From Myxococcales bacterium (lineage in GTDB: Bacteria; Myxococcota_A; Polyangia; Polyangiales; Polyangiaceae): a DNA stretch of 64,000 nt. Below the pieces are notes generated by a model. The model was not told the DNA's origin and did not search any database. It saw only the letters and a list, made by a program, of their open reading frames with translations. Both the position numbers and the translations under genes were made by a program. The DNA lies in NCBI GenBank assembly GCA_947473045.1, contig CANJCO010000012.1:1-64000 (forward strand). The letters run 5' to 3'. Positions 1 through 2,281 of this stretch are shown here, one piece after another (position 1 is the stretch's first letter; each line of letters opens with the position of its first letter).

Positions 1-148
1 TAGCAGGGTGTTGAAAAACACCCTGATAGTAATTGGCGAAGCCAATTGCGTGGGGTGGGGACCCCGAAAAACCGCGTTTTTCGGGGCGGGGAGGTGCATA
101 CCTCCCCGAGATGAAAGGCTAGCAGGCCGTTCTTCAACGGCCTGCTAG
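1..148. repeat. Cluster of five consecutive perfect hairpins
   Basis: Five different perfect inverted repeats lie end to end. Stem/loop positions: 4-12/17-25 with a GAAA loop; 31-37/41-47 with a GAA loop; 62-71/77-86 (10 bp, loop CCGCG); 87-95/100-108 (9 bp, loop GCAT); 119-131/136-148 (13 bp, loop CTTC). The first hairpin on the plus strand and the last on the minus strand both begin TAGCAGG, continue through GTTGAA, and are inverted relative to each other. The block therefore looks like an element with hairpin termini, possibly cut by the left window edge. No open frame is visible in it. It could be a MITE/REP-like element, a structured RNA or a compound terminator; the sequence alone does not decide. 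Confidence 0.8.
119..148 (-). terminator. Hairpin directly after the polysaccharide operon
   Basis: A 13-bp perfect stem with a 4-nt loop begins 5 bases past the stop codon of the last gene of the minus-strand operon. There is no T-tract on the minus strand, so it is not a classical intrinsic terminator. It could still stop RNA polymerase or protect the mRNA 3' end. It is also the last hairpin of the left-edge cluster. Confidence 0.4.
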
Positions 149-152
149 GCGC

Positions 153-1484
153 CTATTCGGCGTCGCGCACGACGTAGCGCTTCCCGCGGCGCACGCGATC
201 GCCCTTGCCGACCGCACGCGCGATGCGAATGAACGTCCAGATCGTGCCCCGCAGCTTGGCGAGCTTCGAGACGCCTACGCGCTCGCTGTATTCGATGGGA
301 AACTCGATGACGTTGTAGTTCGAGCGCGCGGGCAGGATGAGCGTGTCGAGCGGGATGGCGTCGCCCTCGCCGTCGAACGCAAAGCCGCGAATCACGGACG
401 AGCGGTAGCCCCGCAGGCCGCTGTGCACGTCGGTCGTCGGCAGGCCGTGCACCATCGACGCGGTGCCCGCGAAGAGGCGATTGGCCATGAAATTGGGCAC
501 CGGCATCGCCTTCGGATACTTCGACGTGCGGGTGGCATTCACCACGTCGGCGCCAGCCTCGAGCATCTCGCGGATCTGCCCGATCACGTTGGTCGGGTAG
601 GTGAAGTCGCAGTCGATGTAGATGAGCGCGTCGCTCTCGCTGGCCGCCTCGTACATGAGGCGCTCCATCGCCGGACCGTGACCGCGCGGCGGCAGCTGGC
701 GCACCACGCGGGCGCCCTTCGCCTTGGCGAGCTCCGGGGTCTCGTCGCTCGAGCTGTCGATCAGCAGAATCTTCGCGTCGGGCACGATGGCGCGAATGTC
801 GTCGATCATGCGCTCGACGCTCTCTTTTTCGTTGAGCGTGAGCATGCCCACCGTCAGCGAGAGCTTGCGACGTGCGGGGGGCAGGCGGGCCACGAGAACG
901 TAGCCGTCGGCGAGGGCGCGGGGAGCGACGCGCGCAGCGAGCCGCTCCAGAGGCAGGAGCACTTCGCGCGTGTAGCGAAACGAAGTCGTATGCACTTTCT
1001 TCAGCTCGGCGACCGCCTCGGGACCGACGGCTGCGAGCGCGCTGATCACACGGGGATTCACCTCGAGGCGCATGACCTCAAAGCCAGCCGCCTCGACGTC
1101 GCCCGCGACGCGGTCGGGGTCTTCGGACGTGCCAAACGCGATGAGCGCGTGACCGCCGTCGGAGAGCTTGGATTTTGCCGACTCGAGCGCGTCACGCGTG
1201 TGCGCGGCGCCGTCTTCGAGGATGACGAGGTCGAAGAGCTTGCCCTCGATCGCCTTCCACGCTTCTGCCGGGGCGCTGCCGAACGCGTGAGCCTCGTCGG
1301 CGACGTCGCGGGCGCGCGACAACATCGCGGGATCGACCTCGAACGCCACGACGTTGGCTCCGCTCGTCCTGGCGCACTCGGCCGTCTCGGCGACGCCTCG
1401 TCCGATGGCGAGCACTGCCCGGGGTTTGCCGAGATTGTCGCGGATGGCGGGGTTGACGTCCTTGAAGAGTTCGCTGGGGCGCAT
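153..1484 (-). CDS. Methyltransferase-like / family 2 glycosyltransferase fusion
   Basis: A 443-residue protein. Residues 1-180 look like a class I SAM-methyltransferase fold, but motif I is degenerate (AIGRGVAE), so this half may not be catalytic. From about residue 205 there is a dolichyl-phosphate-mannose-synthase-like GT2 domain (start TVGMLTLNE) with the nucleotide-sugar/metal motif IDCDF near residue 288. It probably transfers a sugar from a nucleotide donor to a lipid carrier for the GT39-like protein upstream. The start is placed at MRPSELF, just after the stop of the upstream gene; an in-frame extension would overlap that gene. Last gene of the minus-strand operon. Confidence 0.8.
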   Translation of the reverse strand: MRPSELFKDVNPAIRDNLGKPRAVLAIGRGVAETAECARTSGANVVAFEVDPAMLSRARDVADEAHAFGSAPAEAWKAIEGKLFDLVILEDGAAHTRDALESAKSKLSDGGHALIAFGTSEDPDRVAGDVEAAGFEVMRLEVNPRVISALAAVGPEAVAELKKVHTTSFRYTREVLLPLERLAARVAPRALADGYVLVARLPPARRKLSLTVGMLTLNEKESVERMIDDIRAIVPDAKILLIDSSSDETPELAKAKGARVVRQLPPRGHGPAMERLMYEAASESDALIYIDCDFTYPTNVIGQIREMLEAGADVVNATRTSKYPKAMPVPNFMANRLFAGTASMVHGLPTTDVHSGLRGYRSSVIRGFAFDGEGDAIPLDTLILPARSNYNVIEFPIEYSERVGVSKLAKLRGTIWTFIRIARAVGKGDRVRRGKRYVVRDAE

Positions 1485-1498
1485 GGCGCGCGGGTGTA

Positions 1499-2281
1499 TC
1501 ACCCGGTGGCGCGCGCCGCGAGCACGATCTGGAAACCGAGCAGCCCGGGCGCGAGTGAGCAAATGCGCGTCTCAGCGGGCTCGACCACCGTGCGGTAAAG
1601 CTTGAACGCCGTCGATTCGGTGAGCGCGAGGTGCTCGCCGGCCTCGACCTCTTTGTCGAACAGCTTTCGCAGCACGGGCGCGGCGGACTGGACGAGCGAA
1701 GGCGTGCAGCGCGTCTCGATGGCCTCGAGTCCGCAGTACGACAGAACCTTCGCGATCGAGCGCCGCGTATAAAAACGCAGGTGCGTGCGATCGTACAAAC
1801 CGCTCCACGCGTATTCGAAGCGCCCGAGCAAGGTCGAGATGCGATTGTACCAAACCGCGTAGTTCGGCACCGAAACGATGAACGTAGCGTGCTTCAGCTG
1901 GGGCGCGCGCGCGAGCTCGTTCAGAAACGCGATCGGATCGGCGATGTGCTCGAGCACGTCGCTGAGAACTACGGCGTCGTAACGCGTTCCGGTCGGGCTC
2001 TGCGCGATCCAGTCGGTCGAGATGCCGTGGAACACCGAATCGCAAACTTCGCGGGCCAGCTCGGCGGCGCGCTCGTTGGGCTCGATGCCGTCGATGACGA
2101 CGCTCGGGTAGCGCTCCTTGAGGGCCCGTGCGTTGGCGCCGCAGCCGCACCCGACGTCGAGCACGCGGGCGCGCGAGCTTCCGCTGAGCACCCGGTCTTC
2201 GAGCAGCGACACGAGCACCGTGTTGGGGCGCTCGATGTACGAGTAGCGCGTTCGGGCGAGATCGAGAGGGAAGGCGTCCAT
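1499..2281 (-). CDS. Class I SAM-dependent methyltransferase
   Basis: 260 residues, starting MDAFPLDL. The SAM-binding motif VLDVGCGCGANA is near residue 38, and an acidic post-motif region (VLSDVLEHI) is typical of sugar or lipid methyltransferases (Methyltransf_11/23 group). The C-terminal 60 residues are hydrophobic in patches, perhaps membrane-associating. It lies between another methyltransferase and the GT2 fusion with 14-nt gaps, so it is surely co-transcribed. A likely role is methylating a polysaccharide sugar or lipid-linked intermediate. The substrate cannot be inferred. Confidence 0.82.
   Translation of the reverse strand: MDAFPLDLARTRYSYIERPNTVLVSLLEDRVLSGSSRARVLDVGCGCGANARALKERYPSVVIDGIEPNERAAELAREVCDSVFHGISTDWIAQSPTGTRYDAVVLSDVLEHIADPIAFLNELARAPQLKHATFIVSVPNYAVWYNRISTLLGRFEYAWSGLYDRTHLRFYTRRSIAKVLSYCGLEAIETRCTPSLVQSAAPVLRKLFDKEVEAGEHLALTESTAFKLYRTVVEPAETRICSLAPGLLGFQIVLAARATG

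Follow-up and report, generated by a model that had tools for sequence, protein, structure and literature searches.

A short dispersed element of a Polyangiaceae genome, probably mobilised by an IS5-family transposase, with frequent insertion at stop codons and a core conserved across Polyangiales

The window, by which we mean the whole stretch of 64,000 nucleotides analysed here, opens with one complete 141-bp copy of a dispersed non-coding element (positions 4-144; Table 1). Positions 1-148 contain no ORF of 60 aa or more. The neighbouring glycosyltransferase gene has its TAG stop (153-155) 4 bp past the right target copy, that is, the element misses this stop by 4 bp. The sequence-only reading of the locus had described five consecutive stems (9, 7, 10, 9 and 13 bp), which are present exactly as claimed, as are the inverted ends TAGCAGG..GTTGAA common to both terminal hairpins. 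Its loops GAAA, GAA, GCAT and CTTC are also there, and CCGCG, the loop of H3, has to be added to its list. It had further supposed that the left part may continue outside the window. This is not the case: contig C12 itself starts at window base 1, which cuts off a single base of the left target copy and nothing of the element. On the other strand the right end reads CAGGCCGTTGAA (144-133, - strand), the counterpart of CAGGGTGTTGAA at the left (4-15), and each end is a 22-nt hairpin by itself. Positions 1-160 fold at -95 kcal/mol, compared with -55.9 +/- 4.3 for shuffled sequences (z -9.0; 0/200 shuffles as good). No Rfam family reaches its gathering score in window 1-400, the best being RF02798 at 19.1 bits against the 93 needed.

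Table 1. Features at the left end of the window and the adjoining gene
Feature	Position	Strand	Remarks
Left target copy, remainder TAG (YTAG)	1-3		other copies have CTAG/TTAG here
Left end, terminal inverted repeat CAGGGTGTTGAA (4-15)	4-25	+	forms 22-nt hairpin HL
HL stem	4-12/17-25		9 bp, loop GAAA
Conserved core	28-118	+	covariance model R1, 111.3 bits
Hairpin H2	31-47	+	stem 31-37/41-47, 7 bp, triloop GAA
Conserved G-rich box GCGTGGGGTGGGGA	48-61	+	core alignment
Hairpin H3, CCCCG...CGGGG	62-86	+	stem 62-71/77-86, 10 bp, loop CCGCG
Hairpin H4, CGGGGAGGYGCRYRCCTCCCCG	87-108	+	stem 87-95/100-108, 9 bp, loop GCAT
Right-end hairpin HR	119-148	+	stem 119-131/136-148, 13 bp, loop CTTC
Right terminal inverted repeat CAGGCCGTTGAAG	123-144		read on - strand
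Right target copy CTAG	145-148		
Glycosyltransferase family 2 gene with methyltransferase-like domain	153-1562	-	flanking gene

Searching the genome for the whole block returned at least 41 matches, at ~98-100% identity except for one older copy at 80%. The element is present as dispersed near-identical copies and is not a single-copy sequence, in keeping with the transposable element that the sequence-only reading had considered. The left-end hairpin has 86 matches (at most one mismatch) and the right-end hairpin 99 (up to three mismatches). Eleven of the left-end matches are certainly inside contigs and many others are at contig ends, so the assembly breaks in the element. Distinct copies number between ~48 and 86, the lower figure applying if all other copies were counted twice at contig ends. 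All 36 listed copies measure 141 bp, in a search that missed older, more diverged copies. Similar end hairpins also occur in tandem beside a copy (L048) or alone (L058, L061), which gives the ends a modular look.

The first target base, which is C or T, agrees in 20 of the 23 distinct copies with both sides visible, where ~12 agreements are expected from base frequencies alone and the far target base of copies at contig ends depends on the assembler. Among the nine copies clearly inside contigs it matches in six. One of the three mismatching copies (L022) is explained by a tandem hairpin, and the flank outside that hairpin agrees. One copy is flanked by CTGG at either side. In this genome the ends of the element are thus inverted repeats bounded by a duplicated YTAR target. 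Related sequences were seen in other genera. A copy 99% identical to the element stands at the start of a 4965-bp contig of Polyangiaceae bacterium isolate RH-23may17-336 (contig C52 of G006; L009/L197), and may reflect either a transfer in recent times or an error of binning. G007 (L013, L087) and G011 (L014) have solo hairpins of this end type that stand without the core, for example TTAG-CAGGCCGTTGAAAAACGGCCTG-CTA in L013.

BLASTN in 39 genomes revealed relatives that carry the middle part of the element with other ends. In an alignment of 21 such cores, with the pairing structure specified by hand, the covariation score is 0.244 compared with 0.134 in shuffled alignments (0/500 shuffles reach it), and slid controls give 0.018-0.079. 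Paired cells amount to 90.5%, against 42-59% in the slid controls. Two-sided change is seen in 11/26 pairs, which 18/500 shuffles also reach, and further pair types are unexceptional (193/500 shuffles). The core thus covaries between genera, and the earlier suggestion of a folded RNA, against which an absence of covariation would have told, gains support. A covariance model of the core (91 nt, hairpins 2-4) finds it in 32/183 genomes of the order, representing 19/83 genera. When 377 genomes sampled evenly over the phylum were searched, all ten matches at E 1e-5 belonged to this order, and none was found beyond it among the sampled genomes of the phylum. Named records confirmed by the model include Myxococcales bacterium 68-20 (L186) and the Polyangiaceae MAG (L197). 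An exact-pattern contig scan also matched records of Streptomyces, Halorussus, Stenotrophomonas, Sphingomonas, Nocardioides, Pseudarthrobacter and Phycisphaerae. The model scored 10 of the 23 exact-pattern loci, namely these seven, L185, L186 and L197; none of the seven exceeds 19 bits, and they were therefore treated as chance.

In 73 non-redundant rows there are 49 G-T and 40 A-C pairs, with 24 of the A-C cells coming from the poorly set outermost pair of H2; without that pair the figures are 47 vs 16. In an alignment fitted to an RNA model, this is no more than suggestive that the + strand of the core may be the one that folds, as RNA or as single-stranded DNA. H2 (window 36-42 and counterparts) is closed by GCGRAGC, conserved in most rows of the core alignment. 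As DNA, d(GCGNAGC) folds into a mini-hairpin of exceptional stability, and a role of H2 as single-stranded DNA would agree with this. Separately, four G-runs in window 52-91 (GGGGTGGGG ... GGGGCGGGG), split by H3 and mostly conserved in the core alignment, could form a G-quadruplex.

The core is more conserved than the ends, which show no relationship from one genus to another. The latter read CAGGCTGCTGAA in G005, T(G/C)AAGRGCTGTC in G022, ATGRSCGAGCRTGA in G128, and AACGCCGA in G023 and G146, and there are others too. The right-end hairpin is kept as a structure while its sequence differs between genera: 52/104 copies have a hairpin with a stem of 9 or more after the core, compared with 2/104 control stretches downstream. 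Core copies without this hairpin occur in G129, G120, G062 and G095, and in several genomes core-only copies, with no end hairpin, directly adjoin stop codons (e.g., L103, L112, L113, L175 and L177). In these five examples the right end of the core (GATGA or its counterpart) is followed by the stop triplet of a gene on the opposite strand.

Conservation of this kind would be expected if the core were the primary unit: a module of the Polyangiales that functions as a 3'-end RNA or in the manner of a terminator and spreads with the ends of whichever transposase it picks up, the IS5 ends being recent here. The core-only copies beside stops and the right-end hairpin persisting through sequence change point the same way, as does the gene context. 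The latter comes from a crude reading-frame caller, by which 42 of 156 entries, among them a few duplicates (L001 and L029 are one site), are callable on both flanks. Of these sites 23 are convergent, 9 + 9 tandem in the two orientations, and 1 divergent. The element is often found between convergent genes and hardly ever between divergent ones. However, the equal division of the tandem sites reveals no orientation bias, which a strand-specific RNA might show, and no T-run stands behind H3 or H4 on the + strand. The right hairpin on the - strand, with its tail CCTTTCATCT, scores terminator-like, and nothing on the + strand does. On balance we lean against the core as the primary unit, while regarding it as a possibility to be taken seriously. 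The sequence-only reading had also offered a compound terminator of the surface-polysaccharide operon. This can be at most incidental: although the window copy follows a glycosyltransferase gene, the genes that precede other copies are many and unrelated.

In 50/69 callable flanks (left 35/45, right 15/24) the boundary triplet is the stop codon of the flanking gene itself; in the other 19 the stop is off the boundary. Duplicates were removed by flank and genomes without a clear boundary were excluded before counting; since the boundary motifs were written after viewing the flanks, the count is descriptive. In the genome of the window the stop is on the boundary in 6/10 left and 7/10 right flanks; in one of the right cases it lies at the far side of a hairpin that adjoins the copy. 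For G022, with its TGA target, the count is 9/9 callable left flanks. This coincidence could be a by-product of target rarity, if YTAR were so rare in a GC-rich genome that surviving insertions hit stops. Window 151-64000 has indeed only 25 YTAR sites, 15 of them coding, 8 other non-coding and 2 at predicted stops. However, the 13/20 flanks on the boundary in this genome compare with 2/10 non-coding YTAR sites at predicted stops, and the 9/9 of G022 with 16/85 non-coding CTGA sites (counted in the window, not in G022), both on crude gene calls. We consider target rarity a rather unlikely explanation.

Comparison with homologues indicates that the genes beside the element are not truncated by it and that their stops are authentic. 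The preA-like gene beside L020 has the same last residue as its two closest homologues (81% and 75%), and seven more distant ones (43-48%) end differently. For the gene at L062, 10/14 homologues can be aligned as far as its last two residues and extend 1 to 11 residues past the alignment; with the other four the alignment stops earlier. The gene beside L183 in G022 and its G100 orthologue end at the same residue, the stop being TAA in G100. The sister genome G100 also provides an empty site. One of three joined G022 sites matches it uninterrupted over the full length (74%): G100 has two convergent orthologues there, with stop TGA, and G022 has the element between two copies of TGA. The other two joined sites match G100 in part. 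The flanks overlap by 3 bp (TGA) at two of the three G022 sites and by 6 bp at the third.

As for the mobilising enzyme, DDE_Tnp_1 has two matches only in the genome, one IS5-family and one IS701. The IS5-family transposase (contig C83; NF033581, 273.3 bits vs a cut-off of 140) is carried by a 1339-bp IS, CTAA-CAGGACGTTGAGAAA...TTTCAACACCCTG-CTAA, the single IS5-family element of this genome. The ends of the IS are CAGGACGTTGAGAAA and CAGGGTGTTGAAATT, and its right end has 13 contiguous bases, CAGGGTGTTGAAA, in common with the left end of our element; several positions differ between the ends of the two. A homologue in G145 (64%) is arranged as CTAG-CAGGCTGTTGAAGATC...-CTAG, with ends CAGGCTGTTGAA. 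YTAR is the target motif reported for IS5 (PMC10359306). From these likenesses the element is probably moved in trans by the resident IS5-family transposase. In G022, whose end pattern has 66 matches, no inward-facing pair 1-2 kb apart and no IS with matching ends was found. The IS701-family IS (L068; contig C54, 1-1640) looks intact and lies at a CTAG adjoining a copy of the element. It was rejected as the driver, as its ends read GCACTACTTTGACA and it has simply used that CTAG as an insertion site; CTAG thus seems to serve both IS families. Perfect hairpins with very small loops, and ends that are inverted repeats, were the grounds for setting aside an IS110 bridge-RNA element.

A REPIN or REP element moved by a Y1 (RAYT) transposase is very improbable. 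The two inverted hairpins with ..TAG before each might suggest one, and so might the reported overlap of GTAG REPs with stop codons and their place at 3' ends (PMC3733652). However, Y1_Tnp (PF01797) has no match in this genome (an assembly incomplete at these repeats; the control was positive in 5/14 named genomes), and the tag, present in duplicate at either side, differs from site to site (CTAG, TTAG, CTGG), like a target duplication. Thus, of the two possibilities named in the sequence-only reading, MITE or REPIN-like, the first agrees with the inverted ends, duplication, copies and lack of an ORF, and the second is disfavoured by the failure to find Y1/RAYT and by a target that is YTAR and not GTAG.

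The inverted ends, the duplicated YTAR, the ends resembling those of the single IS5-family IS and the lack of a Y1 match together make MITE the best description. We hold with fair confidence that window 4-144 is a non-autonomous MITE, probably IS5-mobilised in trans, with ends CAGG(N)(C/T)GTTGA, a duplicated YTAR target and a core presumably kept by selection. The IS5-family DDE transposase would recognise these ends and duplicate the target. Insertion at a stop triplet would duplicate the stop and leave the flanking reading frames intact, and such insertions may survive for that reason. The simplest reason for the retention of the structured core (H2, G-box, H3 and H4) would be that, whether as RNA or as an extruded single strand, it benefits gene 3' ends (mRNA 3' end or termination) or does them no harm; alternatively, it may be required for the element's own spread. 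From genus to genus, elements with the same core would have taken up terminal repeats of different kinds. Conservation of the core across genera goes beyond the needs of an ordinary MITE. A broader picture, which we put forward with considerable doubt, is an order-wide family of stop-sited mobile elements whose core is selected as a 3'-end RNA or termination module and whose ends are repeatedly exchanged. The cargo, and not the ends, would then define the lineage.

If the MITE reading is true, the element exemplifies a natural way of inserting DNA harmlessly into dense bacterial genomes, namely, to target a stop codon and duplicate it. The order-wide core is a defined RNA or DNA structure, and its function at gene 3' ends is testable. 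Exchange of ends over a constant core raises the question of how non-autonomous elements outlive their transposases. On the practical side, the repeat accounts for much of the fragmentation of this assembly.

The open-licence literature yielded no earlier description of the element in Polyangiales. For the supply of TAG stops and for location at 3' ends, the nearest precedent is offered by GTAG REPs (PMC3733652). They and REPINs with RAYT (PMC3733652; PMC3116915) are reported to have, as here, paired inverted hairpins at 3' ends and between convergent genes, with ends that supply TAG stops. Unlike them, our element is accompanied by no Y1 that we could find, its flanks are duplicated targets of varying sequence, and its spacer is complex and conserved, with three further hairpins. 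The invariant GTAG (or CGTC) tag is absent at its ends, where YTAG/CTGG varies by site. With the IS5 family it has the type of end sequence and the YTAR target in common, but it is without a transposase gene and its core is unlike those parts of the IS that were compared. MITEs mobilised by a resident IS, such as MITEAba12 by ISAba12 (PMC6382973; reviewed in PMC10969869), are described as likewise short and ORF-less, with IS-like inverted ends, target duplication, many copies and stable hairpins. The element is GC-rich, whereas MITEs are typically AT-rich according to the review, in whose main text the terms 'stop codon' and 'Myxo' are both absent (PMC10969869). In contrast to the IS-mobilised MITEs, its core outlasts the change of ends across genera and it prefers stop codons. 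What is unusual compared with known MITEs is this preference for stops, with the stop duplicated, combined with an order-wide covarying core under changing ends.
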